A stretch of DNA of 64,000 bases from Opitutaceae bacterium (GTDB lineage Bacteria; Verrucomicrobiota; Verrucomicrobiia; Opitutales; Opitutaceae). Of this stretch, positions 17,035 through 38,161 are shown one piece after another. The stretch spans positions 124,001 through 188,000 of the forward strand of contig JAUSID010000072.1 in NCBI GenBank assembly GCA_030648295.1. Direction: 5' to 3'. Under the pieces are notes generated by a model. That model had not been told where the DNA came from and did no database searches. It saw nothing but the letters and a program-made list of their open reading frames with translations. Position 1 is the stretch's first letter. Every line of letters starts with the position of its first letter. The translations under genes were made by a program, and so were the position numbers.

Positions 17035-17436
17035 ATGAAACTCATCCGCCACTTGCTCCCGTTCCTCGCAATCGTCAGCGCGTTGTTCGCTGCTGGGTCC
17101 GTTACCGGCGCGGAGTCGAAAACCAAGGAATCGCCGGCCGAACAGCCCGTCACCGCAAAGGGTAAGCTGGTTCCCGCGAAGGAGGTGGATGCTGCATGGC
17201 TCGCCAACGCCCGCAAAAATTATCCCCTCAACACCTGCCTTTCTTCGGACGAAAAATTCGGCGATCCGGCCGATATCGCCACGTTTGTGTATCGTGAGCC
17301 CGGCAAGCCTGATCGGCTGGTTCTTTTCTGTTGTGAGGGGTGCGGCGATGATTTCCTGAAGGAAGCCGACAGATGCCTCGCGAAGCTGGATGCAGCGGCG
17401 AAGGGCAAGGGGGCGGAAAAAAATCGCGGACGGTGA
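17035..17436 (+). CDS. exported TRASH-like Cys protein (paralogue 1)
   Basis: A 133-residue protein with a signal peptide (LPFLAIVSALFAAGSVTGA). The mature domain has KLVPAKEVDAAWLANARK, YPLNTCLSSDEKFGDPADIA, then KPDRLVLFCCEGCGDDFLKE. The CCxxC followed by DF and a helical tail resembles TRASH/YHS-type metal domains. It is clearly paralogous to 18838-19236 (YPxNxC..S, KPDRL, FCCxxC). It follows the DUF3347 gene by 21 bases. A periplasmic metal-handling role is likely; the exact family is not characterised. Confidence 0.75.
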   Translation: MKLIRHLLPFLAIVSALFAAGSVTGAESKTKESPAEQPVTAKGKLVPAKEVDAAWLANARKNYPLNTCLSSDEKFGDPADIATFVYREPGKPDRLVLFCCEGCGDDFLKEADRCLAKLDAAAKGKGAEKNRGR

Positions 17437-17518
17437 ACATCGGTTTGCGTGCGTGTGCTGGTTTGCCAGCCGCTCGCGTTTCGCTTTTCGTTCGGGTCCC
17501 CTCTGTTTTCCCACACTC

Positions 17519-18709: not shown

Positions 18710-18837
18710 TTTTGCGGGCCGCATGGCTGTTCAATCGTTTAAGCCCGGTCCGATGATGACGCCGCCGAACGGGAGCCAAGAGATTTGAGGGATGGGGCCT
18801 CCGCGTGCGTTAAAGTCACCGAATCATACTTCAATCT

Positions 18838-19236
18838 ATGCAATCCATTCGCTCGTTCTCACTGGCACTCGCAATCCTTGGCGCTCTGCCGTTGGGGGCT
18901 TCCGCTGCGCACGATGCGCAGGGTAAGGACCCTGCCGCTGCAAACGCCACCGCCGGCAAGCTGGTGCCGGTCACCGAAAAAGACGCCGCGTTTGTGGCCA
19001 AGGCCAAGACCGAATACCCGACGAACATGTGCGTTGTCTCCGGCGACAAGCTTGGCGGAGACATGGGCAAACCGATCGATTACATCTATCGCGTCGACGG
19101 GAAGCCGGACCGGCTCATCACCTTCTGCTGCAAGGACTGCATCGGCGACTTCAACAAAGATCCTGGGAAATACTTGAAGATCCTCAACGGCACGGCGGCG
19201 AAAAAGGGCGACGCGAAGTCCAAGCACAGTCATTAA
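18838..19236 (+). CDS. exported TRASH-like Cys protein (paralogue 2)
   Basis: A 132-residue paralogue of the protein at 17035. A signal peptide (LALAILGALPLGASA) precedes GKLVPVTEKDAAFVAKAK, YPTNMCVVSGDKLGGDMG, KPDRLITFCCKDCIGDFNKD and PGKYL. The C-terminus is KSKHSH, a His-rich tail like the HKH ends of other island proteins. The CxxC-DF-DPxxY arrangement resembles YHS/TRASH domains. The leader is short. Confidence 0.75.
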   Translation: MQSIRSFSLALAILGALPLGASAAHDAQGKDPAAANATAGKLVPVTEKDAAFVAKAKTEYPTNMCVVSGDKLGGDMGKPIDYIYRVDGKPDRLITFCCKDCIGDFNKDPGKYLKILNGTAAKKGDAKSKHSH

Positions 19237-19593
19237 CGCGGGAAAAGCCCGGACGCGTGCGGCACGCAGAACGAGGTGTCGCGATTGCGGCGTGCGTGCG
19301 CGGAAACGGATCAGGGATCCCGTCGTTCGCCTCACTGCTCGCGCGGATGCAATTATTCGGGGCTCTTTGCGAACGAGAGGGACGGAGTCTCACGACTGAC
19401 CGGCGCCGTTAGGCTGGTTCCTTACACTCTTCTGGACGCAGAAAGTTTGAGGGATGCTTCCCTGCCGTGGCGTTCATGTTATGTGGACCCTGCGCCTGCG
19501 ATCCGAAAGCAACCGTTTGTCCGGGATCGCGAAACCATACGATCTCCGAACGGAAAACGTCCAAGCCGCGAAACAAGAGTATTCGACGGGCTG
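19237..19593. other. leader region of the CorE-like sigma gene
   Basis: About 360 bases with no convincing gene. The sigma-factor frame is open back to 19276 but contains no ATG and no sigma-like residues before about 19580. A candidate ECF element lies here in reverse orientation (19395-19426). TTTGAGGGATG occurs at 19446 and again at 18785, both in leader regions. Confidence 0.4.
19395..19426 (-). promoter_or_regulatory. reverse-oriented copy of the ECF-type element
   Basis: On the minus strand TGTAAGGAACC (19426 to 19416) is followed, 20 bases after TGTAAG, by GTCAGT (19400-19395). The first 11 bases are identical to the sites before copA and the copA-copB scar. It points away from the sigma gene and toward a region without a minus-strand gene, so its function is unclear; it may be a binding site or a relic of rearrangement. 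Confidence 0.4.
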
Positions 19594-20124
19594 TTGGCAC
19601 AGCGGGCGGAGTTTCACCGCTTCCTGGCCGCCCAGCTCGGGAGCGATGCGGACGCGGAAGACGTGCTGAAACAAAGTCTGCTGAAGGCGCTGCAGAATGG
19701 CGGCAACCTGCGGCGAGGCGAACGTGCCGTAGCTTGGTTCAATCGCATCCTGCGAAATGCGATTTCCGACCACTCTCGGGAAAAGGGCACCGAAAGCCGG
19801 CGAGCGGAAAAGTTTTTGGCCGATCTGCAGGGTCTAGCGGAGGATGTTGCCGCATTGCCGGCCAATTGGGATGCAGCCGTGTGCGCATGTTTCCGCGGGC
19901 TCCTTCCGACTCTAAGGCCGCGTTACGCGGAGGTCATCCGGCGGGTGGACCTGCGCGGTGAGGCAAAGCAGGAGGTTTGCCGGGATCTTGGAATAAGTCG
20001 CGCAACGATGGACGTGCTTTTGCACCGCGCGCGGACCGTGTTGCGAAGGCGTCTGGCGGTGTTTTGTGGCGCCTGCACCCGAGAAAAGAGCGTCGAGAGT
20101 TTCCGCACAAATCAGGGAGTGTAA
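19594..20124 (+). CDS. ECF sigma factor, CorE-like (cysteine-bearing, shortened C-terminal domain)
   Basis: A sigma-70 family ECF factor. Region 2 is AEFHRFLAAQLGSDADAED, LLKALQNGG, AVAWFNRILRNAISDHSR. Region 4 is LRPRYAEVIRRVDLRG, EVCRDLGISRATMDVLLHRA. Two features recall copper-responsive CorE (ECF44): a CAC motif in the inter-region linker (AAVCACFRGLL) and a Cys pair after region 4 (FCGAC). In CorE relatives further Cys residues follow; here the tail ends SVESFRTNQGV without them, so the Cys domain looks truncated. No ATG exists in frame; TTG at 19594 fits the domain start, and the frame is open to GTG at 19276. It sits directly upstream of the multicopper oxidase, its likely target. Confidence 0.72.
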   Translation: MAQRAEFHRFLAAQLGSDADAEDVLKQSLLKALQNGGNLRRGERAVAWFNRILRNAISDHSREKGTESRRAEKFLADLQGLAEDVAALPANWDAAVCACFRGLLPTLRPRYAEVIRRVDLRGEAKQEVCRDLGISRATMDVLLHRARTVLRRRLAVFCGACTREKSVESFRTNQGV

Positions 20125-20245
20125 GGCTTCAGCACCTGCTGCGGTGCACCGCGCCCTGCGCGCGCGACGCAGTGAGGCTGCACGACTTGCTTCTAAAACT
20201 TCAACTCCCAGTAACGGCGTTCAGCCCGCGGTTGTGCATTGAGGG

Positions 20246-20277
20246 TGTAAGGAACCCCAACCTGGCCCGGCGTTCTG
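20246..20277 (+). promoter_or_regulatory. candidate ECF promoter of the multicopper oxidase gene
   Basis: TGTAAGGAACC (20246-20256), 15 bases, then GTTCTG (20272-20277). An identical 11+6 pattern with the same spacing occurs at 25588-25619 before a decayed copA start. The start codon is about 70 bases downstream. GGAAC-like -35 and GT(C/T)-type -10 elements with this spacing are typical of ECF sigma factors. Confidence 0.65.
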
Positions 20278-20347
20278 TCTGAGACTGATATGTTATCGCG
20301 CGCAACGGATTTATTGTCCGTTACCCACCCACTCGTCACTGAATCCA

Positions 20348-22360
20348 ATGCCTCGTTCAGAGCAGTCTCCCGTCCGCGCTTATCCTTTGCGCGCGTCCCG
20401 CCGTGAATTCTTGCGCGCCGCTGCGGCAGCCGGACTCTGGGCCGGACTTTCCCGGATTACCCCAGCATACGCACAGGCGCCGCATGCAGGGCATGCCGGA
20501 CAAGGAACGCCGGTCACGACGTCCGGTTCGCCTGCGGCGGGCGCATCGGTGATCGATCTCGCGATCGACAAGACCGATTTTCGAATCGGCGGGCGCATGG
20601 GCCAGGCCGTCACCGTGAACGGCTCGCTGCCGGCGCCCCTGCTGCGCTTCCGGCAAGGACAGGATGTCGAGTTGCGCGTCACGAATCGGCTGAAGGAGCG
20701 CACGTCGATCCATTGGCACGGCATCCTCCTGCCGAACGAGGTGGACGGCGTGCCGGGTGTGACGTTCAAGGGCATCGATCCGGGCGAGACGTTCGTGTAT
20801 CGTTTTCCGCTCAAACAGTACGGCACGTATTGGTATCACAGCCATTCCGGAATGCAGGAACAGCTCGGACTCTACGGGCCGTTCGTCATCGATCCGGCCG
20901 AGCCCGAGCCGTTCACCTACTCGCGCGAATATATTGTCGTGCTTTCGGATTGGACGTTCGCGGACCCGCACCGGCTCCTCGCGAAGCTAAAAAAACAGAG
21001 TAATTTCAGCAACATGCAGCAGCGCACGCTGGGCGACTTCTTCGACGACGTGTCGAAGAAAGGCTTCAAGCAAACTTGGGCCGAGCGGTCGATGTGGGGG
21101 AAAATGCGGATGGACCCCACCGACATCGCCGACCTCACCGGGACATATTTCGATTACCTGCTCAACGGCCGGCCTGCGGCGACGCCGTGGACGGGAATCT
21201 TCCGTCCTGGCGAGCGCGTACGTTTGCGGATCATCAATTCCGCGGCGACCACGCATTTCGATGTCCGCATCCCCGGCCTGAAAATGACGGTGGTGCAGGC
21301 GGACGGCCAGCACGTGAAGCCGGTCGAGGTCGAGGAGTTCAGGATGGGCGCGGCTGAAACCTATGATGTCCTCGTCGAGCCGACCGAAGACCGGGCTTAC
21401 GCGTTGTTCGCCGAGACGACTGATCGCAGCGGCTATGCGCTCGGCACGCTCGCGCCGCGCGATGGCATGATGCCGCCAATCCCCGAGCGGCGAAAGCGCC
21501 CGCTGCGCACGATGGCCGACTTGGGCATGGGCGACATGGCGATGGGCGACTCCGCCATGGGAAAAATGGACATGAGCGGGAAACAAACGGGCGGCATGAG
21601 TTCCCCCGACCATTTGGCGATGATGGGCAGTCCCAAACCAGCTCCGATGGCGGGGGCGATGCCCGGCATGAATCATAGTGCGCACGGCGCGAACGCAGCG
21701 CCGCTGGCTACGCCCGCCGCTCCGACTGCGGGAGCACACGCCGGTCACAGCGTCGCTCCATCGGCCAGCGCGGCTTCGGCTAGCTCTTCGTCTGCCGCGC
21801 CGAGCGGCCATGAGGGCATGGCGGGCATGAGCGGCGGCCATGGCGGTATGGGTGGGATGAAAAACGAATTCGGTCCCGCCAACAGTATGATGGCGATGTC
21901 GCCGGTGAGCCGCGCGCACGAACCCGGCACCGGACTCGGCGAAGACGGCCGGCGCGTTTTGGTTTACCGCGATCTGGTCGCGCACGACTCGCGGCCAGTG
22001 CCTCCGCCGGAGCGCGAGATTGTCATGAACGTGACAGGCAACATGGAGCGGTTCATCTGGGGGTTCGACGGCAAAAAATTGTCGGAAGCCGAGCCGATCT
22101 CGTTGCGCTTCGGCGAACGCGTGCGGATCACGTTTATCAATCACACGATGATGGAGCATCCGCTGCACCTGCACGGCATGTTCATGGAATTGGAAAACGG
22201 TGCGGGGGGGCTCCTGCCGCTAAAGCACACGGTGATCGTGAAGCCGGGAGAAAAAATCTCGGTGCTCGTGACGGCGGACGCGCGCGGCGACTGGGCATTT
22301 CACTGCCACCTGCAATATCACATGGATGCGGGAATGTTCCGCGTGTTCAGGGTCGCCTGA
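20348..22360 (+). CDS. copA: CopA/PcoA-type multicopper oxidase
   Basis: A 670-residue periplasmic oxidase that converts Cu(I) to Cu(II). A Tat signal (SRREFLRAAAAAGL) precedes three cupredoxin domains. The four copper motifs are present: IHWHGILLP, YWYHSHSGMQEQLGLYGP, HPLHLHGMFM and WAFHCHLQYHMDAGMFRV, so type 1, 2 and 3 sites are intact. Residues about 395-525 form a very Met- and His-rich insert (GDMAMGDSAMGKMDMSG and similar), as in PcoA/CueO, for copper binding. It follows the CorE-like sigma gene, has an ECF-type promoter, and is followed after 10 bases by copB. Confidence 0.95.
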   Translation: MPRSEQSPVRAYPLRASRREFLRAAAAAGLWAGLSRITPAYAQAPHAGHAGQGTPVTTSGSPAAGASVIDLAIDKTDFRIGGRMGQAVTVNGSLPAPLLRFRQGQDVELRVTNRLKERTSIHWHGILLPNEVDGVPGVTFKGIDPGETFVYRFPLKQYGTYWYHSHSGMQEQLGLYGPFVIDPAEPEPFTYSREYIVVLSDWTFADPHRLLAKLKKQSNFSNMQQRTLGDFFDDVSKKGFKQTWAERSMWGKMRMDPTDIADLTGTYFDYLLNGRPAATPWTGIFRPGERVRLRIINSAATTHFDVRIPGLKMTVVQADGQHVKPVEVEEFRMGAAETYDVLVEPTEDRAYALFAETTDRSGYALGTLAPRDGMMPPIPERRKRPLRTMADLGMGDMAMGDSAMGKMDMSGKQTGGMSSPDHLAMMGSPKPAPMAGAMPGMNHSAHGANAAPLATPAAPTAGAHAGHSVAPSASAASASSSSAAPSGHEGMAGMSGGHGGMGGMKNEFGPANSMMAMSPVSRAHEPGTGLGEDGRRVLVYRDLVAHDSRPVPPPEREIVMNVTGNMERFIWGFDGKKLSEAEPISLRFGERVRITFINHTMMEHPLHLHGMFMELENGAGGLLPLKHTVIVKPGEKISVLVTADARGDWAFHCHLQYHMDAGMFRVFRVA

Positions 22361-22370
22361 GAGAATCACC

Positions 22371-23174
22371 ATGAACACGAAAACGCTCGTTCAATGTGGT
22401 GTCGCGCTGGCGCTCGTCGTTGGCTCGCCCGCGGTCGCTCACGCCGCCGACGCCGGGCATTCGAGTCATGGCGGTCTCGGCAAACCATTGCCGCCCGGCT
22501 GGGAACCCGCGGTGCACGATCGAATGATCAACACGTTCACGTTGTTTGAAAAAGCCGAGTTCCGCACCGGCGACATGCCCGACGCGGCGGTGTTCGATGC
22601 GCAAGGCTGGATCGGTGGCGACTTCCAGCGGTTCTGGTGGAAGGCCGAGGGAGAACAGCTCACCAAAGGCGCGAAGCCCGGAGAGATCGAAGTGCAAGCG
22701 CTCTACAGCCGGCTGTTCAGCCCGTTCTGGGATGTTCAAGCGGGAGTGCGGCTCGACCGCAGCTATAGTGGCCCCGAGCGGGAAACGCGGGGGCATCTCG
22801 TAATCGCTCTGGAGGGGCTGGCACCCTACTGGTTTGAAATCGAACCAGCGCTGTTCATCAGCGACAAGGGCAAGGTTTCGTTTTCATTCACCGGTTCGTA
22901 TGATCTCCTGCTGACCCAACGTTTGGTGCTCCAACCGCGCCTGGATTTGCGGCTCGACGCCGAAAAACAAGACGGCGCACAGAGCATCCTCGGCGAAGGG
23001 GTCAACGACCTCGATGTAGGTTTACGCCTGCGGTATGACATCCGGCGGCAGTTCTCGCCCTACATCGGACTGGAGTGGCATCGGGCGCTCGGCAGCACCG
23101 TCGGGCTCACCCGTCGCGCCGGAAAAGATATTTCGAGGACCGCCCTGGTCTTCGGGCTGCGGGCCTGGTTCTGA
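22371..23174 (+). CDS. copB: CopB/PcoB-type outer-membrane copper resistance protein
   Basis: A 267-residue protein with a signal peptide (CGVALALVVGSPAVAHA) and a short His-rich N-terminus. It then has the CopB family body: DRMINTFTLFEKAEFRTG, GWIGGDFQRFWWKAEGE, VQALYSRLFSPFWDVQAGVR, APYWFEIEPALFIS and RYDIRRQFSPYIGLEWHR, ending in VFGLRAWF. It is predicted to form an outer-membrane beta-barrel. CopB is normally cotranscribed with copA, and the 10-base gap supports that. It lacks the long Met/His repeat region of some CopB proteins. Confidence 0.94.
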   Translation: MNTKTLVQCGVALALVVGSPAVAHAADAGHSSHGGLGKPLPPGWEPAVHDRMINTFTLFEKAEFRTGDMPDAAVFDAQGWIGGDFQRFWWKAEGEQLTKGAKPGEIEVQALYSRLFSPFWDVQAGVRLDRSYSGPERETRGHLVIALEGLAPYWFEIEPALFISDKGKVSFSFTGSYDLLLTQRLVLQPRLDLRLDAEKQDGAQSILGEGVNDLDVGLRLRYDIRRQFSPYIGLEWHRALGSTVGLTRRAGKDISRTALVFGLRAWF

Positions 23175-23217
23175 ATCTGGCAACGAAACAACAGCGTTCG
23201 GCAAAAAACGACCGATC

Positions 23218-23349
23218 ATGAAAACGAAAAACAAAATCATCCGCGCGATGTTCGCGCTGACCCAGGCGCAATGGCTGCGGCAAACGGTGCTGGCGCTCGC
23301 GCTCTTCATGCCGCTCTTCGGAGTGGAAGGCTGCGGACACAAGCACTGA
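23218..23349 (+). CDS. 43-residue membrane peptide ending in GCGHKH
   Basis: A very small protein: basic N-terminus (MKTKNKIIRAMFAL), one hydrophobic helix (TVLALALFMPLFGVEG) and the end CGHKH. The VEGC segment could act as a lipobox, leaving only CGHKH as the mature peptide, or it could stay as a membrane peptide presenting a metal-binding tail. It resembles the 44-residue product at 27493 in size and layout. It lies between copB and the flavocytochrome gene. Coding status rests on the repeated design in this island. Confidence 0.55.
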   Translation: MKTKNKIIRAMFALTQAQWLRQTVLALALFMPLFGVEGCGHKH

Positions 23350-23424
23350 GCCATCCGTCGGCACGGAGGCCGCCTTCCGAGTCAATCGGGACCCGGAAGG
23401 CGGCACCGCTGCAACGAACGTCTC

Positions 23425-24765
23425 ATGTCGAGCGACGAAACCAGCGGACGATCGGGCGCGCTGGCGCGCATGCTGGCGTATACGTTGATCGTGCTTTCGC
23501 CGCTCATCATCGTCGCGCTTGTCCGCCCGGCGACAGATCACAGTTTTGTCTATACGGTGGGCAAGAATCTCGCGCTGGTCGGCTTCGCGATGTTCGCGAT
23601 GCAGTTCGTCCTCTCCGCGCGGCTCAAGTGGATCGAGCGCCCGTTTGGGCTCAACCTCCTCTTCAGTTTCCACAAGGCGATGGCGGTCGTCGCATCGCTC
23701 CTGGTGTTTTCGCACCCGTTGTTGCTCGTGCTCGGCGGTGGCGAGCGCTCGCTGGTTTTAGGCCCGGAGGTGAGCTGGCACATCTGGCTGGGTCGAATCG
23801 CGATGGTCGTGATTCTATTTCACGTGCTGCTGGCGACCTTCCGGCTGATAATCCGGCTGAATTACGAAACGTGGCGCTTCGTCCACAACGTCGTTGCCGT
23901 GGTGTTTCTGCCGCTGGCGTTTCTCCATAGCTGGAAAGCGGGCGGCGATCTTCAGCTTCCTGCGATGCGGGTGTTGTGGGTAGTGCTGTTTGCTTCGGCT
24001 GCCGCCGCGTATGGCTGGCATCGCTTCGTGCGGCCGGTGCGCTTGCGGCGCGAACTCTACACAGTGACCGACGTGCGCAAGGAGGCTGATAGGGTCTGGA
24101 CGATCGCGCTCGCCGCGCCGGCCGGCGTGCAGCGGCTCGATTTTCTGCCGGGGCAGTTTCAGTTTCTCACCTTCCGCCGCGCTGCTCATCTGCCGGTGGA
24201 GGAGCATCACTGGACCATCTCCTCGAGCCCGTCGGAGAAAGGCGTGCTTCGCGCGACGATCAAGGAGTCGGGCGATTTCACGGCGACTATCGGCTCGACG
24301 AAACCGGGCGACACCGCGCTGATTTACGGCCCGTTCGGCCGCTTCTCGTATGCGCTGCACCCGGAGCAGCGCGATTTGGTTTTCATCGCTGGCGGTATTG
24401 GCATCACGCCACTGATGGCAATGCTGCGCCACATGCGCGACACTCAGGCGAAGCGCACCGTGACGCTGCTCTACGGCAACACCAACGAGCAGGACATCAC
24501 ATTCCGCGACGAGCTCGCCGAGATGGAACGCGCTGGCGTCGCTTCGCTCAAAGTGGTGCATATTTTGAGCAAGCCTTCCGCGGAATGGCGCGGCGAGCGG
24601 GGCCGGCTCGATGCGGAAACCGTCGCGAAGCTTTGCGAGCCGTTGGGCGCGGACCGGGCGTATTACCTCTGCGCTCCGCCAGCGGCGATGAGGCAGGCAA
24701 TCCGCGTTCTCCGGCAGGCGGGCGTGCCGCCGCGCCGAATCCTTTTCGAGCGTTTCAGCCTTTAA
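23425..24765 (+). CDS. ferric-reductase-like membrane flavocytochrome
   Basis: A 446-residue protein. The N-terminal half has six transmembrane helices with two His pairs each separated by 13 residues (SFHKAMAV ... VFSHP and FVHNVVAV ... FLHSW), the bis-haem arrangement of ferric reductase/NOX proteins. The C-terminal half is an FAD/NAD(P)H reductase: FLPGQFQFLTF, HHWTISSSP, FIAGGIGITPLMAM, LLYGN and YYLCAPPAAM. It would move electrons from cytoplasmic NAD(P)H to periplasmic metals such as Fe(III) or Cu(II). Its place between copB and a Spy-like gene suggests a role in metal redox state. Confidence 0.88.
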   Translation: MSSDETSGRSGALARMLAYTLIVLSPLIIVALVRPATDHSFVYTVGKNLALVGFAMFAMQFVLSARLKWIERPFGLNLLFSFHKAMAVVASLLVFSHPLLLVLGGGERSLVLGPEVSWHIWLGRIAMVVILFHVLLATFRLIIRLNYETWRFVHNVVAVVFLPLAFLHSWKAGGDLQLPAMRVLWVVLFASAAAAYGWHRFVRPVRLRRELYTVTDVRKEADRVWTIALAAPAGVQRLDFLPGQFQFLTFRRAAHLPVEEHHWTISSSPSEKGVLRATIKESGDFTATIGSTKPGDTALIYGPFGRFSYALHPEQRDLVFIAGGIGITPLMAMLRHMRDTQAKRTVTLLYGNTNEQDITFRDELAEMERAGVASLKVVHILSKPSAEWRGERGRLDAETVAKLCEPLGADRAYYLCAPPAAMRQAIRVLRQAGVPPRRILFERFSL

Positions 24766-24777
24766 CCGCCGTCCGTC

Positions 24778-25506
24778 ATGCAACCCTTGATTAACCTGAA
24801 ATCTTTCCTCGCCGTGCTGCTGGTGCTTGCGGTGCCGGGTGCCTTGCTCGTCGCTTATTTTCGTAACTATGATCCTGAAGCCGGCGGGCATGAGCACGCC
24901 GCGGGCGGCGCTTCAGGCGGCGCGGGCCACGATCACGACAAGGGCGGAAAATCCGAAGGGAAGAGTGGCGACATGCCGATGAAGGGACACGACGACATGT
25001 CGTCCGCCCAAAAAAGCGACATGCCCGTGTCGATGGGCCACGAAGGCACGAAGTCCACGACGCCAGCCCAGCCTGCGATGGAAGAATCCGGGCCGGCGGC
25101 GCTGATGCACATTGGAGCAAAGGGATTTTTCCTCGATCGGCCACAGACGTTTACGCCACGCGCCGACCAGGCGAAAACTCTCAGTGAAATCAAAGAGCGT
25201 TCCGCGATGGAAATGATGGCGGCAGACAAAAAACTTCAGGAGGCCGAGCAGCAGCTCTGGAAGCTCACGGCCAGCGAACGGCCCGATGTTGCGACAATCG
25301 AAGCCAAGGTCCGTGAAGTGGAAGAGCTGCGCGCCGACCAGCGGATCGCCTTCATCCGCTCCGTCTCGGAGGCCGCGAACCTGCTCACCCCGGAACAAAA
25401 GGAAGTCCTTCTTCGTAGCCGCGTCTCCTCGAAACCGGACGCCAATACGCCGGCGGCACATTCGAAGAAAACGGAAGGAACGGCAGAGCCCGCGCACAAA
25501 CACTAG
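24778..25506 (+). CDS. His/Met-rich exported Spy-like protein ending in HKH
   Basis: A 242-residue protein with an N-terminal membrane anchor (SFLAVLLVLAVPGALLVAYF), then a His/Met-rich low-complexity region (about 38-100; HEHAAGG, GHDHDKGG, DMPMKGHDDM). After HIGAKGFFLDRPQ, a helical domain (about 125-225) has the periplasmic sensor/Spy repeat pattern (QAKTLSEIKERSAMEM, LLTPEQKEVLL). It ends EPAHKH. The protein at 28316 shares the same HIGA-GFFLD-PQ hinge and helical domain. A metal-binding chaperone or sensor is the likely role. It starts 12 bases after the flavocytochrome gene. Confidence 0.75.
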   Translation: MQPLINLKSFLAVLLVLAVPGALLVAYFRNYDPEAGGHEHAAGGASGGAGHDHDKGGKSEGKSGDMPMKGHDDMSSAQKSDMPVSMGHEGTKSTTPAQPAMEESGPAALMHIGAKGFFLDRPQTFTPRADQAKTLSEIKERSAMEMMAADKKLQEAEQQLWKLTASERPDVATIEAKVREVEELRADQRIAFIRSVSEAANLLTPEQKEVLLRSRVSSKPDANTPAAHSKKTEGTAEPAHKH

Positions 25507-28191: not shown

Positions 28192-28315
28192 CTGGATCGC
28201 GTTCCTCCGGAGGGCGCCGGGCTGGTGTGAGCGACGCAGCATTGAGCTACCACACCAGTCCACCGCTCAGCATCGGGTCACGGACTCCAACATGAAACCA
28301 ATCCAAAATCGGACT

Positions 28316-29386
28316 ATGAAAACTCGAATCCTAATTTTAACTACGCGCCTCACGTGCGCCGGCATCCTGGCATCGGCTCTCTTCGTAGGCGTCACGCATA
28401 AATCCCTGGCGGCTGCGCCGCCGGTCGATCCTGCACACGCGGCGCACGTCGCGTCGGGAGCGATGCCTCCCGATGCCGCGAAGGGCGAGCCCGCCCTGGC
28501 CCAGCAGATTTCCGAATTACAGACGAAGGTCACGCAACTCGAAGCGACGCTGGCGAAACACCCGCCAGCGATAGGCACCGCACCGGCAGCCGCAGCCATG
28601 CCGGGAATGACGGGCGCACCTGCATCTGCGGCTCCCGCGATGGCTATGGGAATGGAAAAGATGAAAGCTGGCGCCGCCATGCCCGGCATGGAGGCGAGCG
28701 CCGCCCCAGCGCCTGCGATGGCCGGCATGAGCGATCCTGCCGCTTCCGCGCCTGCGGGCGGAGCGATGAACATGATGGGCATGATGAGTCAGATGATGGG
28801 GATGATGGACAAAATGATGCCCATGGGGGGGACGAGCGCACCGATGCCCGCCGGCAGTATGGCCCCCGCGGCAACACCGATGAGCGGCATGGGCATGGGA
28901 AGCGACAAAATGGAGATGGCCGGGATGATGGGGATGAGCGCAATGAACGCAGCAGCGCCAGGAGCCATGCCGCAGTCCGCGCTACCCGGATATCCCGGCG
29001 CCTCTCACCTCTACCACATTGGCGCGACGGGCTTCTTCCTCGATCACCCCCAGCACATCGCGCTCACCACCGAGCAGCAGGCCGCGCTCAACAAGGCGAA
29101 GGAACAAGCACTGCTCGCGAAGAGCACGGCGGATCGGGCGATCCAACAAGCCGAGCAGGAACTGTGGACGCTCACCGCGGCGGATCAGCCGGACGCCACG
29201 GCGATTCAGGCGAAGATCGCGGCGATCGGAAAACTGACTGGCGATCAGCGCCTCGCCTTCATCCGTGCCGTGGGTGACGCGAGCAAGGTTCTCACCGACG
29301 AACAGCGCAAAGCTCTCGCCGGTTTTGCGGCGCCCGCTAGCGCCACTCCCGCTGCGGCTCCGATGCCTGGTATGAAAGGCATGTGA
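28316..29386 (+). CDS. very Met-rich exported Spy-like protein
   Basis: A 356-residue protein with signal peptide (LTCAGILASALFVGVTHKSLAA). A short coiled-coil (LAQQISELQTKVTQLEATLA) precedes a long Met/Ala/Gly-rich region (about 85-225; MGMMSQMMGMMDKMMPMGG). The C-terminal helical domain starts at HLYHIGATGFFLDHPQ and resembles that of the protein at 24778 (TADRAIQQAEQELWTL, DQRLAFIRAVGDASKVLT). The Met clusters strongly suggest Cu(I)/Ag(I) binding. An upstream ATG at 28292 is possible; 28316 gives a better signal peptide. Confidence 0.75.
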   Translation: MKTRILILTTRLTCAGILASALFVGVTHKSLAAAPPVDPAHAAHVASGAMPPDAAKGEPALAQQISELQTKVTQLEATLAKHPPAIGTAPAAAAMPGMTGAPASAAPAMAMGMEKMKAGAAMPGMEASAAPAPAMAGMSDPAASAPAGGAMNMMGMMSQMMGMMDKMMPMGGTSAPMPAGSMAPAATPMSGMGMGSDKMEMAGMMGMSAMNAAAPGAMPQSALPGYPGASHLYHIGATGFFLDHPQHIALTTEQQAALNKAKEQALLAKSTADRAIQQAEQELWTLTAADQPDATAIQAKIAAIGKLTGDQRLAFIRAVGDASKVLTDEQRKALAGFAAPASATPAAAPMPGMKGM

Positions 29387-29410: not shown

Positions 29411-29707
29411 ATGAAAAAGACCAAATCAAAACCTGTCGAATTCTCCTGCCACGCACCCACGGCGAAGGCAGTATTCATCGCGGGCACCTTTAACGATTGG
29501 AGGCCCGACGCCACGCCATTGCACAATCACCTGCCGGACGGCAGGTGGGCCGTCACGCTGCCGATCCCAATCGGCTATCACGAATACAAGTTCGTGGTTG
29601 ATGGCCAGTGGTGTTGCGAACCGGGCTGCGAGCGCGAACACAACGGCTGCCCCAAATGCTGCGCGAACGAGTTTGGCACGATGAACCGCGTCTTGGAAGT
29701 GAGGTGA
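29411..29707 (+). CDS. small glycogen-binding-domain protein with Cys cluster
   Basis: A 98-residue CBM48/AMPK-like protein: VEFSCHAPTAKAVFIAGTFN, DWRPDATPL, DGRWAVTLPIPIGYHEYKFV, VDGQW. Unlike the copy at 13021 it carries a Cys cluster in place of the usual loop (CCEPGCE, CPKCC). That suggests a metal site has been added to a glucan-binding fold. No signal peptide is visible. It begins 24 bases after the Met-rich Spy-like gene. Confidence 0.78.
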   Translation: MKKTKSKPVEFSCHAPTAKAVFIAGTFNDWRPDATPLHNHLPDGRWAVTLPIPIGYHEYKFVVDGQWCCEPGCEREHNGCPKCCANEFGTMNRVLEVR

Positions 29708-30710: not shown

Positions 30711-33110
30711 ATGAACAGGAACCTCATCGCTTTTGGCGCGCCGGGCATCGAGCCGCGCTGGACTTCGAGCGCGAAGGACGGCGTCGGCACCGCGTATCAC
30801 AGTGCGTCCTCTATCTGGTTCACGCTCAGTCACGGGATCCTCAACGAGATCTATTTTCCGCATGTAGATACGCCGAACACCCGCGACCTGCAGTTTCTCA
30901 TAACCGACGGTGAATCGTTCTGCCACGAGGAACGGCGCGACCTGCTCCACAAAACCGAATACCCGGAGCAAAGCGTGTTGCTTTACCGGCTGACCAATTC
31001 CGACCGCGAGGGCCGCTATCGCCTCATCAAGGAAATCGTCGTGGACCCGCGCTCCGCGGTTTTGCTGATGCACACGCGGCTGGAAATCCTCGACCCGAAG
31101 TTGCACGGCAAGCTGCGTCTCTTTGCTCTGCTCGCCCCACACCTGAAAGGCACGGGCAAGAACAACTCGGCCCGTTGGTGTGGACTGGATGGCCGCGAGC
31201 TCTTCGACGCGCAACGGGAGGACATCAACATGTCGTTCGGTTGCGCGCCTGATTTCACGCGGCGCTCCGTCGGCTACGTCGGATTCAGCGACGGCTGGCA
31301 GGACTTGATGGATAATTTTAAGATGGATTGGGAATTCGAGCGGGCTGAAGACGGCAACATCGCGTTGACCGGAGAGATCGATTTGTCGGCCGGAATGGAG
31401 TTCACGCTGGGCGTCGGATTTGGACGCACGCCGCACAGTGCGTCAGCTCATCTGCTGCAGGCGTTCGCCACGCCATTCACCAGTCAGCGCGAGAAGTATG
31501 TGCGCCAATGGCAGCGCACACGCGCCGAGGTGGATTTGAGCGCGCACACCAATGATGGCGGGTCCATGATGCGTCTGAGCCAGTGCCTCTTGCTCGCGCA
31601 TGAAGACAAGATTTTCCAGGGCGCTTTTGTGGCGTCGCTGAGCATCCCCTGGGGTGAGACGAAGGACGACAGCGACCAAGGCGGATATCACTTGGTCTGG
31701 ACGCGCGACATGGTGCAAACCGCCACGGCACTGCTGGCCTGCGGGCAGACGGAGTCGCCATTGCGCGCGTTGATCTGGCTCGCGTGTGTGCAGGAGGCCG
31801 ATGGCCGCATGCCGCAAAACAGCTCGATCAGCGGCGAGGCTTACTGGAAAGGAATTCAACTCGATGAAGTGGCGGTGCCGATTCTGCTCGCCTGGCGATT
31901 GCAGCAAGCGAATGCGCTCCGGCAATTCAATCCTTGGACGCTGGTCTCTCGTGCCGCGCGTTATTTGGTGCTGAACGGGCCGGTGACAGCGCAGGAACGT
32001 TGGGAGGAGAATTCCGGCTACTCGCCGTCGACACTGGCGACCATCATCGGGAGCCTGGTGTGTGCAGCGGAATTTGCGCGCGGCCGAAAGGACGAACTCG
32101 CGGCGCACTTCTTGCTCGATTATGCGGACTGGCTTTCGGCGCACCTGGAGGAGTGGACGGTCACGGATCGTGGTGAACTCGTGCCGGGTAAACCGCGACA
32201 CTACGTTCGCATCACGCCCGCCGACCCGAAACAAGCAGTGGCTTCGCCTAACCCCGACAACGCTGATTTTTATGTCGCCAACGGCGGGGGCAAACATCCA
32301 GCGCGCAACATCGTGGGCGGCGATTTCCTTCAGCTCGTTCGGCTCGGAGTTCGGGCGGCGAACGACCCGCTGATCGTCGATTCACTGGCCGTGATCGATC
32401 GGGTGCTCAAACGCGATCTGCCCCAGGGGCCGGGTTGGCGCCGCTATAATCACGATGGTTATGGAGAGAAGCCGGACGGCAGTGCCTACAATGGAACCGG
32501 TGAAGGTCGCTGCTGGCCGATCCTGACGGGCGAACGCGGTCACTATGAACTGGCCGCGGGACGCGATCCGCTCCCGTTCATCGCCGCGATGGAAAAATTC
32601 GCCAACGAGGGCGGCATGTTGCCGGAACAGATCTGGGATGCGGACGATTTGCCGGAGGGAAAGATGAAGCGCGGGCGCGCGACCGGCGCGGCGATGCCGC
32701 TGTGCTGGGCTCACGCGGAGTATGCGAGCTTGGTCCGCAGTCACAAAGACGGAGTTTGTTTCGACCGCATCGAGCCGGTTTTTCAGCGCTACGCCAAAGC
32801 TGCGACGAGCAGCAGGATTGAAATGTGGACGCTCGCTCACCAACCGCAACGGATCGTCCAAGGAAATATGTTACGCATCATCACCGAACAGGCGGCGACG
32901 ATTCATTGGAGCTGCGATGGTTGGGCGACGACAAACGACGCCGAAACGCGGGATACCGGCCTTGGTTGCTGGTTCGCGGATTTGGGGTCGGACCAGCTTC
33001 TGCCCGGCGCCCGTATCGTCTTCACCTTCCGCTGGGAAGCGGGGTGGGCGGGAAAGGACTTTGCGGTCGAGGTCGTGGAGCGGAGCGAAAGCCAAAGGCG
33101 AGACACATGA
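30711..33110 (+). CDS. GH15 glucoamylase (glucan 1,4-alpha-glucosidase)
   Basis: A 799-residue enzyme that releases glucose from alpha-glucans; no signal peptide, so cytoplasmic. An N-terminal beta-sandwich (about 1-270) is followed by the (alpha/alpha)6 barrel. Motifs include [51 protein letters not shown] (general acid Glu) and GMLPEQIWD (general base Glu). The length fits bacterial GH15 enzymes with an N-terminal domain. Its stop overlaps the start of the G6PD gene, so translation is coupled and its glucose may feed that step after phosphorylation. Confidence 0.93.
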
Positions 33111-34507
33111 ATGCTCCTCACTCCGACGCGCTGGTGATTTTCGGCGCCACGGGCGACCTCGTCGCAAAAAAGATTTTTCCCGCGCTCTATGCAATGGAGC
33201 GGCGCGGCCGGCTCCAGATGCCGGTCATCGGAGTGGCAAGGTCCGACTGGACGATTGAGAAGTTTCGGTCGCGCGCGCGTCAGAGCGTCGAAAAGATCGA
33301 GGGCTTCGACGAAGCGGTGTTCGCGAAGCTCCAGGAGCGGCTCCACTACATCAGCGGCGATTACGGGGCTTCTGCCACCCACGCCGCGCTCCGCAAGGAA
33401 CTTGGCGATGCCGCACATCCGCTGCACTATCTCGCCATCCCTCCCAGCGTGTTCCCGAAAGTGATCGAGGGACTCGGGCAGTCTGGCTGCGCCCGCGGCG
33501 CGCGCGTGATCGTCGAGAAGCCCTTCGGTCGTGACCTGTCATCCGCGCAGGCGCTCAGCGCGACACTCCACACCGTCTTCGACGAGGCGAGCGTCTTCCG
33601 CATCGATCATTACCTCGGGAAGGAATCGGTGCAGAACATCCTCGTTTTCCGTTTCGCCAACACGTTCCTCGAACCGTTTTGGAACCGCAGCTACGTCGAG
33701 AGCGTGCAGATCACGATGGCCGAAAAGTTCGGCGTCGAGGGCCGCGGCGGATTCTACGAGGAATCCGGCGCCATTCGCGACGTGATTCAGAATCACCTCA
33801 TCCAAGTCGTGGGATTCCTCGCGATGGAACCGCCACAGATGAACAGCAACCAGGCGATTCGTGACGAACAGGCGAAGCTGTTCAGAATGATTCGCCCGCT
33901 GCGGACGGACGACGTGGTGCGCGGCCAATACCGTGGCTACCGCGAAGAGGATGGAGTCGCGCGCGACTCCAAGGTCGAAACCTTCGCCGCCGCGCGGCTC
34001 CGCATCGACTCTCCGCGCTGGAGCGGAGTGCCGTTCTTCATCCGGTCGGGCAAGTGTCTCCCGGCGACGATGACCGAGGTGCTCGTCATGCTGAAACCGC
34101 CTGCTCTCAGCGAACTGTGCCCAGGCCAGGCGAACTACGTGCGTTTCCGGCTCAGTCCCGACGTGACGATTGCCATCGGTGCGCGCGTGAAGCGCCCCGG
34201 CGAGGAATTGATCGGTGACGCGACGGAGCTCAAAGTTGTTAATCGCCCCTCGGGAGATGAGATGGGCGCCTACGAGCGGCTGTTGGGCGATGCGATGATT
34301 GGCGATGGCACTCTCTTCGCGGGCCAGCACGGCGTGGAGGCTGCGTGGGCGGTTGTTCAACCCGTCCTGGGGCACGCGACGCCCTTGCATGAATATAAGC
34401 CCGGCACCTGGGGTCCGTCCGAGGCCGAGGAACTCACGACCGGCATTTGTGAATGCCGCAGTCCAGTTTGGCTGCTTCCTCACGCCAAAGACGGAGAATC
34501 GAGCTGA
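33107..34507 (+). CDS. zwf: glucose-6-phosphate 1-dehydrogenase
   Basis: A 466-residue enzyme oxidising glucose-6-phosphate and making NADPH, the first step of the oxidative pentose phosphate pathway. The nucleotide-binding motif is [18 protein letters not shown], followed by [12 protein letters not shown] and the active-site [21 protein letters not shown] and FIRSGKCLP are also typical. The length is near the usual 480-500. It is coupled to GH15 upstream and to the reductase fusion downstream, so NADPH supply to that reductase is a reasonable inference. Confidence 0.95.
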
Positions 34508-34566
34508 TGACTACCTCAACAATACAGGAACCGCCCGGACACTGTCGGACGTTTCCGAATACGATT

Positions 34567-36687
34567 ATGAAATCGACTTCTCAACGGCAAACTGGGCGCC
34601 AGCTAGCGCGCGTTTCTACCGCCCCTGGCCTGCTCGTGGGGCTGCTGTTGACGCCATGGTTGTTCGCGCAATCGCCCGAGGAGCATGCGAGCCATCATCC
34701 CGGCGGTCAGACAGCCGCGGCCATGCCGGCAACGGGAACGATGCCCGGGCCTCCGGGCGGAGTCCCAGCACCGGGCGGAATACCGGCGGCCGGAGGCGGC
34801 CCTGGTCCAGGCGGGATGGATGGCATGGGCGAGATGATGAAGAACATGGGCAAGCCGCCGCCGAAGGAACTGTATCCCTTGCTGATGGCGTTGCCGGAAT
34901 TGACGCCGGAAAAACGGCAGCAGGTCGAACAACAGGCCTCCGAGCGCATGCATGCGGGAACGATGCTGATGGGCCATGCGCTCGACGCCCTCAATGTCGG
35001 CGCGCAGTCTGGCGACTATACTGCAATGCACGAAGCGATGACGCGCCTGCGCGAAGGCGCAGCGCAGCTCGAGAGCGGCATCGCGGCGCGGCGCGCGCTG
35101 GCGGAAGGCCGCCCGCCACGCGATGTCGCACTGGCGTGGTTCAAGCAGGAGATGAGGCTCGCGTCTCCGGTCGGAGGTGAGGCGAGCCATGGAGTGCGTG
35201 GCCTCTCGTGGTTCCATCTCTTCACGATGGCGCTGCTCGTGGCGTTCGCCTTTGCGATGCTCGCCATGTATTTCTTGAAGATGCGTCGGGCGACCGCGTT
35301 GTTCGGACGGATCGAACCCGGCGCGGGATCTTCGCCTCCTGGATCGGTGCCGCCACTTGGCGGCGCACCCGGCCCGTCGCCGCCGCCCGGAGGGAAAGCT
35401 CCGCCGGCCGGAGGATCTCCGCCGCCGACAGCCGAGCCCAAGGCAGACACTTCGGCCAAATCTTCGCCCGACGACGCAAAGCCGCCTATGCCAGCCGCGA
35501 CTCCCGCACCGCCAAGCTCAACCGCCCGAGCGCCGAACCCTCCGGAAACGCCCGCCGAAAAGCCTGCGGCCACGGCCGCTGCCGCGTCGAACGGACCGCT
35601 GCCGCTCACCGCGAAGTGGTCGGGTCGGCTTCGCGTCGCGAACATCATCCGCGAAACGCCTTCGGTCGAAACGTTCCGGCTCCGCGCGCCAGCCGGCGAC
35701 CCTCTGGCGTTCATCTTTACACCCGGACAATTCCTCAACGTCGCATTCGCGATCGGCGGCGCGCGAATGAACCGCTCGTATTCCATCTCGTCGTCGCCAA
35801 ACGAACGGGACTACGTCGATCTCACGGTGAAGCGCGAGGACCGCGGCGCCGTCTCCCGCCACATCGTCGACCTGCTCAAGGTCGGGGACGAGATCGAAGC
35901 CGGAGGCCCGGTCGGCAAGTTCACGTTCACCGGCACCGAGGCGGACAGCGTCGTCCTCATCGGAGCCGGCGTTGGCATCACGCCGATGATGAGCATCGCC
36001 CGATTTCTCACCGAGCAATCCTGGCCCGGCGATGTCTTTTTCATCTACGGCTGCCGCGCTCCGGTCGACTTGATTTTCGGCCAAGCCATCGCCGCTCTCG
36101 AGCGTCGCAATCCAAAGCTGCACGTCGCCATCACGATGTCGAAGCCGACATCGGATTGGAAGGGCTCGCGCGGGCGAATCACGAAAGAATTCCTCCTGCA
36201 AGCCGTCCCCGATCTCGCGGCGCGGCGAGTGCAACTCTGCGGGCCGCCGACGATGATGGATGCGATCAAGACGCTCCTCATCGAGATTGGCGTAACGCCC
36301 GAGAACCTCAAGACCGAGGCGTTCGGGGCGGTGAAACCTCCGCCCGCCGCTCCCGGAATTTCCGCGCGACCGGCGGCCGCTGCGACTGGCCCGCTGGTCA
36401 CGTTCTCAAAGAACCACAAAGCCGCAAAAATTGGCATCGACCAGAGTGGTGAACAGGCCGCGCTCGCCACCGGCCCCGGCCAGACCATCCTCGAACTCTC
36501 CGAAGATCTCGGGATCGGCATCCAGTTTTCCTGCCGCGTCGGCACCTGCGGGCTATGCAAGGTGAAGATGACGGCCGGCGAGGTCGACATGGCGGTCGAT
36601 GACGCGCTCGACGACGACGACAAAGCCAGCGGCATCATCCTCGCCTGCCAGGCAAAACCCAAAGCCGAAGTCACCGTGGAGGCGTAG
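34567..36687 (+). CDS. membrane-anchored fusion: Met-rich periplasmic domain, FAD/NAD reductase, 2Fe-2S ferredoxin
   Basis: A 706-residue fusion. After a signal anchor (GLLVGLLLTPWLFAQ) comes a periplasmic part with Gly/Pro/Met-rich sequence and a helical domain (about 100-210). One transmembrane helix (LFTMALLVAFAFAMLAMYFL, near 220-240) and a Pro-rich linker (about 255-335) lead to a cytoplasmic oxidoreductase: FTPGQFLNVAF, MNRSYSISSSP, VLIGAGVGITPMM, LCGPPTMMDA. It ends in a 2Fe-2S ferredoxin (CRVGTCGLC and a distal Cys in LACQAKP). It should take electrons from NAD(P)H. ATG at 34507, overlapping the zwf stop, is the alternative start. Such a fused periplasmic domain is unusual. Confidence 0.85.
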   Translation: MKSTSQRQTGRQLARVSTAPGLLVGLLLTPWLFAQSPEEHASHHPGGQTAAAMPATGTMPGPPGGVPAPGGIPAAGGGPGPGGMDGMGEMMKNMGKPPPKELYPLLMALPELTPEKRQQVEQQASERMHAGTMLMGHALDALNVGAQSGDYTAMHEAMTRLREGAAQLESGIAARRALAEGRPPRDVALAWFKQEMRLASPVGGEASHGVRGLSWFHLFTMALLVAFAFAMLAMYFLKMRRATALFGRIEPGAGSSPPGSVPPLGGAPGPSPPPGGKAPPAGGSPPPTAEPKADTSAKSSPDDAKPPMPAATPAPPSSTARAPNPPETPAEKPAATAAAASNGPLPLTAKWSGRLRVANIIRETPSVETFRLRAPAGDPLAFIFTPGQFLNVAFAIGGARMNRSYSISSSPNERDYVDLTVKREDRGAVSRHIVDLLKVGDEIEAGGPVGKFTFTGTEADSVVLIGAGVGITPMMSIARFLTEQSWPGDVFFIYGCRAPVDLIFGQAIAALERRNPKLHVAITMSKPTSDWKGSRGRITKEFLLQAVPDLAARRVQLCGPPTMMDAIKTLLIEIGVTPENLKTEAFGAVKPPPAAPGISARPAAAATGPLVTFSKNHKAAKIGIDQSGEQAALATGPGQTILELSEDLGIGIQFSCRVGTCGLCKVKMTAGEVDMAVDDALDDDDKASGIILACQAKPKAEVTVEA

Positions 36688-36689
36688 CG

Positions 36690-37391
36690 ATGAAGAACCG
36701 CGAACGCTTCATCGTCATCAGCGTCTTCGTCGTGCTCGTGTTTGCGTGGCTCGGCTTCTTCCTGCATGTCTCACCGCGCTTCGCGGGCAGTGGCCTCGGG
36801 GCGGTGTTTGGGATCTCCGGGGCCGTGCTGATGATCCTTCCGCTCGGTTACGTGTTCATGAAGCGCGCTCCTTTTCTCAAGGAGCGCCTCGCCCAGCACG
36901 TCTCGTTGCAGACCTGGCTTTCGATTCACATCTACACCGGCATCGTGGGGGCGCTGCTCGCACTCGTCCACACGGGTCATAAATATACCAATCCGCTCGG
37001 CATCGCCCTCACCGCGACGATGCTGCTCGTCGTCGTGAGCGGGATTGTCCTGCGCTACCTGACTCCATTCGTGAATCTCGAAATGAAGGACAAGCTCCTG
37101 CTCTTGCAGACGGCGCGTGGCGATCTCGATCACGCTTGGGGACTAGTGGAGCAACCAGCCGACGGAAAAGAAAATCGCCCGAAAGAGCCGGCAGTCTATT
37201 CCGCCTTGCGAGTCACCCTGCTGGCGGAAGGGGTGGCAGACCTCGAGTATTCGATCGGCACGCACGAGCTGCTGAAACGCTGGTTCTCGCGCTCTCTGGT
37301 CGTCCACATTGTCGTTTCGGTCGCGTTCTATGCGCTGCTCGTCGGGCACATCGCGTCCGGAATTTACTTCGGACTGAGGTGGCTGCCATGA
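36690..37391 (+). CDS. probable di-haem b-type membrane cytochrome
   Basis: A 233-residue protein with about five transmembrane helices. Two His pairs each spaced by 13 residues (H80 and H94 in SIHIYTG ... VHTGH; H206 and H220 in VVHIVVS ... VGHIAS) suit two b-type haems. A charged loop (about 130-185) lies between the pairs. No exact family is recognised; it resembles ferric-reductase/cytochrome b561-like helices. It starts two bases after the reductase fusion and overlaps the multihaem gene by four bases, suggesting it carries electrons from the 2Fe-2S centre to the periplasmic cytochrome. Confidence 0.72.
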   Translation: MKNRERFIVISVFVVLVFAWLGFFLHVSPRFAGSGLGAVFGISGAVLMILPLGYVFMKRAPFLKERLAQHVSLQTWLSIHIYTGIVGALLALVHTGHKYTNPLGIALTATMLLVVVSGIVLRYLTPFVNLEMKDKLLLLQTARGDLDHAWGLVEQPADGKENRPKEPAVYSALRVTLLAEGVADLEYSIGTHELLKRWFSRSLVVHIVVSVAFYALLVGHIASGIYFGLRWLP

Positions 37392-38161
37392 TCAAGCTCG
37401 CCCTCATAGTTGTGCTCCTCATCGCTGGGAGCGCGGCGACGACACTCTCGCTTCTATACTATTCACCTGTGCAAATCGCGGCGCAGCGTGCGGTCAGGCC
37501 GGGAGAGCTGTCGCAGCCGCACGCGTTTCTGGAAAACAAGTGCGCGGCCTGCCACTCCGCGGTGAAGGGTGTCGAGGCGAAGAACTGCATCGTCTGCCAT
37601 GCTGACAACACGGCCATCCTCCAACGCCAGCCCACTGCCTTCCACTCCGACATCGCCGCGTGCGCCGCCTGCCACCAAGAACATCAAGGCCGGGTGCCTT
37701 CGACGACGGACATGGATCACGTGGCTCTCGCGCGCATCGGACTGCGCCAGATGCAACCCGCGGCAAAATCCCACGACCCGGCCCGCGACGACTTGATCGT
37801 GTGGATCGCGAACGGCACGCCGTCCGCTGCCACCCCTCAACTGCAACGCGAAGAATCGCTGCTCAACTGTGCAACGTGCCATCAAAAGAAGGACCGGCAC
37901 TTCGGTCTGTTCGGCAACGACTGTGCGCAATGTCACGGCACCGCAAAATGGACCGTCCCGGAATTCCGCCATCCTTCACCCGTTTCGCAGTCCTGCGCGC
38001 AGTGCCACCAGGCTCCGCCCAGCCACTACATGATGCATTTCAAAATGATTTCGATGAGCATCGCGCGGATGGAAAAGGCCGAGGTGAGTCAGTGCTTCCT
38101 CTGCCATCAGACGACCTCGTGGAACGACATCAAAGGCGCCGGCTTCTACAAACACCATTGA
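37388..38161 (+). CDS. seven-haem c-type cytochrome, membrane anchored
   Basis: A 257-residue protein with an N-terminal anchor or signal (LALIVVLLIAGSAATTLSLL). Seven CxxCH motifs are visible: CAACH, CIVCH, CAACH, CATCH, CAQCH, CAQCH and CFLCH. Extra His residues (HQEHQG, DRHFG, SHYMMHF) may be distal ligands. Multihaem c cytochromes of this kind accept electrons from membrane quinone or b-type partners and pass them on in the periplasm. It is the last gene of the coupled redox operon. Confidence 0.9.
   Translation: MIKLALIVVLLIAGSAATTLSLLYYSPVQIAAQRAVRPGELSQPHAFLENKCAACHSAVKGVEAKNCIVCHADNTAILQRQPTAFHSDIAACAACHQEHQGRVPSTTDMDHVALARIGLRQMQPAAKSHDPARDDLIVWIANGTPSAATPQLQREESLLNCATCHQKKDRHFGLFGNDCAQCHGTAKWTVPEFRHPSPVSQSCAQCHQAPPSHYMMHFKMISMSIARMEKAEVSQCFLCHQTTSWNDIKGAGFYKHH

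Follow-up and report, generated by a model that had tools for sequence, protein, structure and literature searches.

In enzymes of the NOX/Fre family, pairs of histidine residues spaced about 14 residues apart lie on two membrane helices. These histidine pairs, the use of cytosolic NAD(P)H (reduced nicotinamide adenine dinucleotide or its phosphate) and flavin adenine dinucleotide (FAD), and the delivery of electrons to the outside are features that the NOX/Fre/STEAP ferric reductase superfamily shares with the genes described here, and eukaryotic members of this superfamily reduce Cu(II), according to the accessible part of one account (PMC7558416). Bacterial reduction of Cu(II) has been proposed in the case of the cupric reductase CcoG, while MsrQ-like and PepSY-like extracytosolic systems resemble the present one in exporting electrons across the inner membrane for periplasmic redox work, as set out in the available portion of PMC8238504. 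In this study we analyzed a 64-kb window (the whole stretch of DNA considered here), part of the 9.1-Mb draft genome of an Opitutaceae bacterium, which contains, next to a copper island, three consecutive genes encoding a reductase with a periplasmic head (protein 1), a b-type membrane protein (protein 2) and a multihaem c-type cytochrome (protein 3), referred to below as the trio. Judging from sequence, we propose, with a probability of about 0.6, that the trio is a split exporter of NOX/Fre-like type, which carries electrons from NAD(P)H to the periplasm in the service of copper (possibly silver) resistance and is optionally fed by the pentose-phosphate route. A preliminary description of this window had joined the trio to two upstream genes, for a glucoamylase and a glucose-6-phosphate dehydrogenase (G6PD; zwf), in a single chain leading from glucose to the periplasm; all five genes are indeed present on the + strand, at 30711-38161, where they had been placed.

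The reductase, b and c genes form a defined, conserved module. They occur in identical order and on the same strand in all 30 relatives read, which come from Verrucomicrobiota, Planctomycetota, Pseudomonadota and Bacteroidota. Searches with the b protein returned five loci among genome contigs and 52 plasmid records, and its closest named matches belong to metagenome-assembled genomes of Verrucomicrobiota, two of them Opitutaceae. Among 286 genomes of the class, 15 matched the b protein at E 1e-3; six (that of the window included) were counted as members and the nine weaker matches (E 1.7e-5 to 6.7e-4) were set aside, and a b-protein profile found the same six members in 387 genomes of the phylum. 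When plasmids were searched with the cytochrome, the same 52 of 52 records were returned, with the aligned b and c stretches 30-126 nucleotides (nt) apart in 50 of them. The two exceptions are BTAi1, where the best places lie in different copies on a multi-copy plasmid, and a plasmid of Gluconobacter, whose copy has been broken by rearrangement. On the latter, from Gluconobacter oxydans (L058, L059), a truncated b gene with insertion sequence (IS) elements nearby is found near 6.3 kb, and a short open reading frame (ORF) followed by the cytochrome gene near 137 kb, on the opposite strand. Moreover, pairwise distances within the three protein families are correlated with one another (r 0.81, 0.72 and 0.83 for 20 of 31 loci, against a permutation maximum of 0.40). 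The preliminary description had named separation of the three genes in relatives as the observation that would speak against their union; among these relatives they are kept together, as reductase-b-c in the 30 loci and as b-c in the plasmid records. Two additional loci (L013 of genome G232 and L024, the second locus of G044) contain weak b-like genes beside a multihaem cytochrome ORF (six and four CXXCH motifs, both ORFs being cut by the end of the stretch), with no reductase match within the 3.3-kb stretches examined. A wider b-c superfamily may therefore exist.

The relatives of protein 2 are mostly annotated as "hypothetical protein" or "iron reductase". Hydropathy predicts five hydrophobic helices, and six histidines (H26, H80, H94, H97, H206 and H220) are invariant in 29 of 29 aligned members, a degree of conservation that excludes chance. 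H80/H94 and H206/H220 reproduce the NOX/ferric reductase spacing on two helices in all 29, from which we infer two haems b. Lysine and arginine residues number 3, 4 and 10 on the predicted inside versus 1, 1 and 1 outside, which argues for an N-in topology with H80/H206 on the cytosolic side and H94/H220 on the periplasmic side; H26/H97 would lie at the periplasmic face and could form a third site. The dehydrogenase is not fused to the haem domain: in the window as in the 30 relatives, it has a gene of its own, adjacent to that of protein 2.

Protein 3 has an N-terminal hydrophobic anchor and the seven CXXCH motifs with which it was first described, as befits a multihaem c-type cytochrome. In 29 of 30 relatives a single frame contains exactly seven such motifs; in the remaining one, a broken Roseomonas copy, they are divided 4+3 over two frames. 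The alignment contains 49 invariant columns, the seven CXXCH among them (28/28), and nine further histidines (H45, H86, H99, H111, H171, H195, H213, H217 and H257) are likewise invariant in all 28 sequences, which would provide enough distal ligands for seven haems. On a plasmid of Methylophaga pinxianii (L028), the cytochrome c maturation genes ccmA to ccmI are clustered about 3 kb downstream of the trio.

Protein 1 consists, in order, of a hydrophobic signal segment, an HxxHH motif, a Met-rich stretch, a helical hairpin, one transmembrane segment, a Pro-rich linker, FAD- and NAD-binding domains and a C-terminal 2Fe-2S domain. FAD_binding_6, NAD_binding_1 and the C-terminal Fer2 all exceed their Pfam cut-offs, and the motifs RxYS, GVGITP, CGP and CX4CX2C are present, so that the fusion has both the flavin and the iron-sulfur parts ascribed to it, whose absence was the second observation named as speaking against the preliminary description; no NCBIfam equivalog reaches its cut-off on this protein. 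The Met-rich periplasmic part, noted at the outset in the window alone, recurs across relatives as an HxxHH/Met-rich head: HxxHH was found in 25 of the 26 heads read (window included), the exception being the third BTAi1 copy, which has HGAPH. Most of residues 81-150 of the head model have a predicted local distance difference test score (pLDDT) above 90, and the head by itself matches 50 plasmid records. Protein 1 is split into two ORFs at six loci (L002, L004, L006, L009, L036 and L040), and an IS element cuts one BTAi1 copy; these are drafts or decayed copies.

The proximity to copper genes, also pointed out in the preliminary description, proved to be a link that holds over four phyla. Of the trio loci, 10 of the 11 from verruco-/planctomycetes and 18 of the 20 on plasmids contain matches to a panel of copper genes. 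The density of distinct panel genes is 14.4 per 100 kb at the former and 14.5 at the latter, compared with 0 in 16 control stretches (299 kb) of trio-bearing genomes and 1.5 per 100 kb in four stretches (200 kb) of trio plasmids, a contrast that is inflated because the panel was drawn from trio neighbourhoods. Annotated gene tables of the plasmids trend the same way, and Met-rich or Spy-like proteins are encoded upstream of many trios. The trio-bearing plasmid of Alteromonas is part of a metal-resistance island, and its host surpasses other strains of A. macleodii in tolerance to Zn, Hg and Cu; the trio is not singled out in the part of that report available to us (PMC4781885).

The order of the genes, their motifs and conservation, the copper surroundings and the recurrent association with zwf are observed. 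We infer the haem count of protein 2, the path and direction of the electrons and the metal acceptor, and propose the following scheme. In the cytosol, NADPH, as in the preliminary description, or NADH would reduce protein 1, first at its FAD and next at its 2Fe-2S centre, and electrons would pass from there to two stacked haems b of protein 2, first at H80/H206 on the cytosolic side and then at H94/H220 on the periplasmic side, a third metal or haem site at H26/H97 perhaps lying on the path. The seven-haem cytochrome on the periplasmic face would take the electrons from protein 2, and the acceptor would most likely be a metal bound to the HxxHH/Met-rich head of protein 1 or to nearby Spy-like or Met-rich proteins. 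Metal reduction by the trio is plausible from these sequence features, the candidate reactions being that of Cu(II) to Cu(I), for exporters preferring Cu(I), or that of Ag(I) or Au. P1B-type copper exporters are reported to prefer Cu(I) (PMC7558416, in part), and reduction of Cu(II) would therefore feed such exporters. In the window, stored glucan could be a source of reductant by way of the glucoamylase and the extra G6PD, whose genes precede the trio in one operon-like array.

Several findings, in addition to the inflated copper contrast, weigh against this reading. The Pfam domain Ferric_reduct (PF01794) reaches only 16.2 bits on the b protein of the window, against a cut-off of 28 (E <=0.1 in 9 of 29 members, the best being 0.0012), and the model of this protein, built from six sequences only, has a poor fold (pLDDT 66), with generic helical bundles as its structural matches. 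Owing to the sub-threshold score, the poor model and the unfused dehydrogenase, we did not file protein 2 in the NOX/Fre family, although it would function in the manner of a haem domain of that family. Furthermore, multicopper oxidases are annotated in 13 of 20 plasmid stretches and one is present in the window island; such an enzyme would oppose Cu(II) reduction, creating a one-compartment cycle unless the two activities were separated by time or oxygen. The oxidases, as well as the Met-rich or Spy-like proteins upstream of so many trios, would equally suit an exporter of the same kind with a non-metal acceptor, be it O2, peroxide, the multicopper oxidase or oxidised Met-rich proteins under repair in a copper-stressed periplasm. 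We consider this unlikely, given that, in nearly every member read, the head that looks metal-binding is a part of the reductase, and that inspection by eye of 20 (incomplete) plasmid gene tables revealed no peroxidase or Met-sulfoxide reductase.

Hydrogenase or hydrogenase-maturation genes near the trio on three plasmids, which would fit another partner, are a further counter-argument. They comprise [NiFe]-hydrogenase genes in Alteromonas (L030) and on the BTAi1 plasmid (L060) and a HypE gene in Salinimonas (L038), and could mean that the flow is reversed or lateral, with periplasmic donors such as hydrogenase feeding electrons inwards. That they occur in only these three of the plasmid regions read makes such a direction very improbable, as does the finding, contained in the accessible part of PMC3102683, that hydrogenase activity in E. 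coli was not found to require Orf1 and Cyt (trio genes 2 and 3 by order) to reach its maximum. A role as a ferric reductase, in iron uptake or iron respiration, might be suspected from the "iron reductase" annotation of some b proteins, from a domain type usual among iron reductases and from the TonB-dependent receptor downstream of the trio in the window; yet the surroundings are of the copper type, the 20 plasmid gene tables showed no siderophore genes, and a ferric reductase, of the one-chain type, is present in the window island in any case, so we give this explanation very little credence.

The remaining points on the negative side concern the optional fuel supply. Whole-record searches found no zwf match in 17 of 21 trio plasmids (three exceed the cut-off and a fourth carries a sub-threshold relic), GH15 is present in 5 of 21, and the density of sugar genes on plasmids is 3.0 per 100 kb near the trio, little above the 2.5 of same-plasmid controls. 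In the window itself, the glucoamylase (Glucodextran_N E 6e-97, GH15 E 8e-34; TIGR01535 705 bits, slightly below the 742-bit cut-off) is single-copy in the genome, and its lack of a signal peptide by hydropathy means that any glucose would be freed inside the cell; no glucokinase was found among the 20 window proteins scanned with Pfam. The G6PD scores 472 bits with TIGR00871 (cut-off 401), and a second zwf elsewhere in the genome (contig C168, 43% identical) makes the island gene an extra copy.

The occurrence of these two genes differs from locus to locus. In L002, zwf and a near-full-length glucoamylase gene precede the trio, in L003 zwf is kept and the glucoamylase survives only as a relic, L005 has the trio without either gene, and L006 contains a different type of zwf, 2.5 kb downstream of the trio. 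In BTAi1 (Bradyrhizobium), gnd and zwf are located directly upstream of the third trio copy, on the same strand (zwf at 140 nt), with a divergent GH15 gene nearby, and in Variovorax WDL1 the order gnd-zwf-GH15-tal-tkt-pgm follows copper genes. The zwf products encoded in the window, BTAi1, WDL1 and L006 share 41-56% identity (41-47% without WDL1). Three zwf types are found near trios, and the two GH15 types involved are 18-20% identical; recruitment of sugar genes was probably repeated, as these low zwf identities and the two GH15 types indicate.

It is a serious possibility, if somewhat short of an even chance, that glucoamylase and G6PD travel as passengers of a stress-survival island and have no functional tie to the trio. 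Of the 39 records common to two lists of matches (the best 60 of 73 and the best 60 of 258), 38 have the glucoamylase gene at about 1 kb from zwf; none of these records, by eye, is among the 52 trio records, and gnd is named in three. The weak enrichment on plasmids, the absence of both genes at L005 and the decay of the glucoamylase gene at L003, and the two trio plasmids that carry sugar genes at a distance from their trios point in the same direction. Against such independence, three zwf types have been recruited close to trios, and sugar genes are present at 4 of 11 verruco-/planctomycete trio loci versus 1 of 16 control stretches (4.0 versus 0.3 per 100 kb). On the four plasmids with zwf (one of them the relic) the distances to the trio are 140, 7969, 11065 and 12697 nt, and random placement brings all four to within 15 kb in 6.5e-4 of draws, in a test designed post hoc. 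On a plasmid of Sphingomonas sanxanigenens (L094), genes for ClpB, GroEL and Hsp20 share one 50-kb stretch far from the trio with pentose-phosphate and GH130 genes, as in a stress-survival plasmid. The single chain from glucose to the periplasm thus stands only in part: zwf genes of three types do occur near trios, in BTAi1 as close as 140 nt on the upstream side, but the cassette is found without the trio, and the trio mostly without the cassette. The glucoamylase-G6PD pair is a separate, optional cassette, perhaps no more than a frequent companion of the trio. A bolder version of the proposal, in which an undescribed, horizontally spread NAD(P)H-driven reductase of head-bound copper or silver was repeatedly joined by a private pentose-phosphate fuel supply, stored glucan paying for metal detoxification outside the membrane, appears to us rather doubtful.

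The features of the locus are collected in Table 1. The tight packing originally claimed for the five genes holds for the glucoamylase stop and G6PD start (4-nt overlap, ATGA, 33107-33110), for the b gene, which starts 2 nt after the fusion gene, and for the b and c genes (4-nt overlap), but is slightly overstated for the G6PD-to-fusion junction, where a fusion start at 34567 leaves a gap of 59 nt. Position 34567 is the likely start, common to L002 and L003; the first ATG of the ORF is at 34453.

Table 1. Features of the trio locus and its surroundings in the window
Feature	Coordinates	Strand	Basis
Rest of copper island: CusCBA-type efflux, multicopper oxidase, CopB, one-chain ferric reductase, Metal_resist protein	6344..25506	+	Pfam
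Met-rich Metal_resist/Spy-like periplasmic protein, upstream of the five genes	28292..29386	+	PF13801 E 1.3e-8; relatives upstream of trios
Stand-alone CBM48-like (glycogen-binding type) domain with Cys cluster	29411..29707	+	Relatives beside trios
GH15 glucoamylase, no signal peptide by hydropathy	30711..33110	+	Pfam, NCBIfam, hydropathy
Glucose-6-phosphate dehydrogenase (zwf), extra copy in genome	33107..34507	+	TIGR00871; second zwf elsewhere, 43% identical
Trio gene 1: signal peptide, HxxHH/Met-rich periplasmic head, one transmembrane segment, Pro-rich linker, FAD + NAD(P) + C-terminal 2Fe-2S reductase	34567..36687	+	Pfam, motifs, hydropathy
Trio gene 1, periplasmic head: EHASHHP, Met-rich stretch, helical hairpin	34672..35215	+	Alignment, model
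Trio gene 1, single transmembrane segment	35218..35274	+	Hydropathy
Trio gene 1, cytosolic FAD-binding, NAD-binding and 2Fe-2S domains	35635..36663	+	Pfam
Trio gene 2: membrane protein of five helices with His pairs H80/H206 and H94/H220 (putative ligands of two haems b) and with H26/H97	36690..37391	+	Alignment, hydropathy
Trio gene 3: membrane-anchored seven-haem c cytochrome	37388..38161	+	CXXCH counts, alignment

The small protein (98 residues) encoded between the Spy-like gene and the glucoamylase gene, which we take from its sequence pattern to be of the CBM48 type, is represented at 8 of the 11 trio loci of verruco-/planctomycetes, that of the window among them. Its five best matches among the 286 class genomes (at least 94 bits, the next scoring 73) all adjoin trios, in five of the six trio genomes, and distant annotated relatives bear the name "isoamylase early set domain". 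In the copper island, a one-chain ferric reductase (Ferric_reduct, FAD and NAD domains; 23425-24765) directly follows CopB, so that the island holds two different transmembrane reductases. Beyond the trio are an ORF for an extracytoplasmic function sigma factor of the Rhodopirellula/Verrucomicrobium family (38491-39180, - strand), which matches Pfam in sigma region 2 only and seems truncated, and, 1 kb downstream of the trio, the gene of a TonB-dependent receptor (39201-42374).

Reductases of the Hcr/PaaE/GbcB type are soluble enzymes with neither a periplasmic head nor a transmembrane segment. Protein 1 resembles them in the order FAD, NAD and C-terminal 2Fe-2S, and differs in possessing both of these additional parts. 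The MsrQ-like and PepSY-like systems are defined by flavinylated partners, in the accessible part of the account cited above, the main text of which does not mention copper (PMC8238504); Pfam matches of the trio proteins include no FMN (flavin mononucleotide)-binding domain, the neighbourhood not having been searched for ApbE. A trio of the CcoG type was considered and rejected, since no iron-sulfur polyferredoxin membrane domain appears among the Pfam and NCBIfam matches of the trio proteins, a result obtained without direct sequence comparison with CcoG. Genes orf1 and cyt of the Alteromonas hydrogenase cluster are very probably trio genes 2 and 3, judged by gene order alone: the printed order orf1/cyt/orf2/hynD fits these two genes ahead of the hydrogenase cluster, and the accessible part of the report treats them as possible hydrogenase accessory genes, without an electron-export or metal role (PMC3102683). 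We found no description of the trio as a system in the open full-text literature, which is weak evidence of novelty, as the search mostly excluded subscription papers and preprints.

The trio is short and testable. If our proposal is correct, copper resistance can extend beyond efflux and oxidation to an active redox control of the periplasm at the expense of cytosolic reductant, and the presence of sugar-oxidising enzymes in some copper islands would find a reason. In comparison with the NOX/Fre/STEAP superfamily, the trio is distinguished by a separate-chain dehydrogenase with a 2Fe-2S centre and a periplasmic head of metal-binding type, by the added seven-haem cytochrome and by Pfam scores below the cut-off. 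If the trio is indeed an exporter, plasmid-borne and occurring in copper islands across four phyla, it would be for bacteria what the cupric reductases of the cell surface are for eukaryotes.

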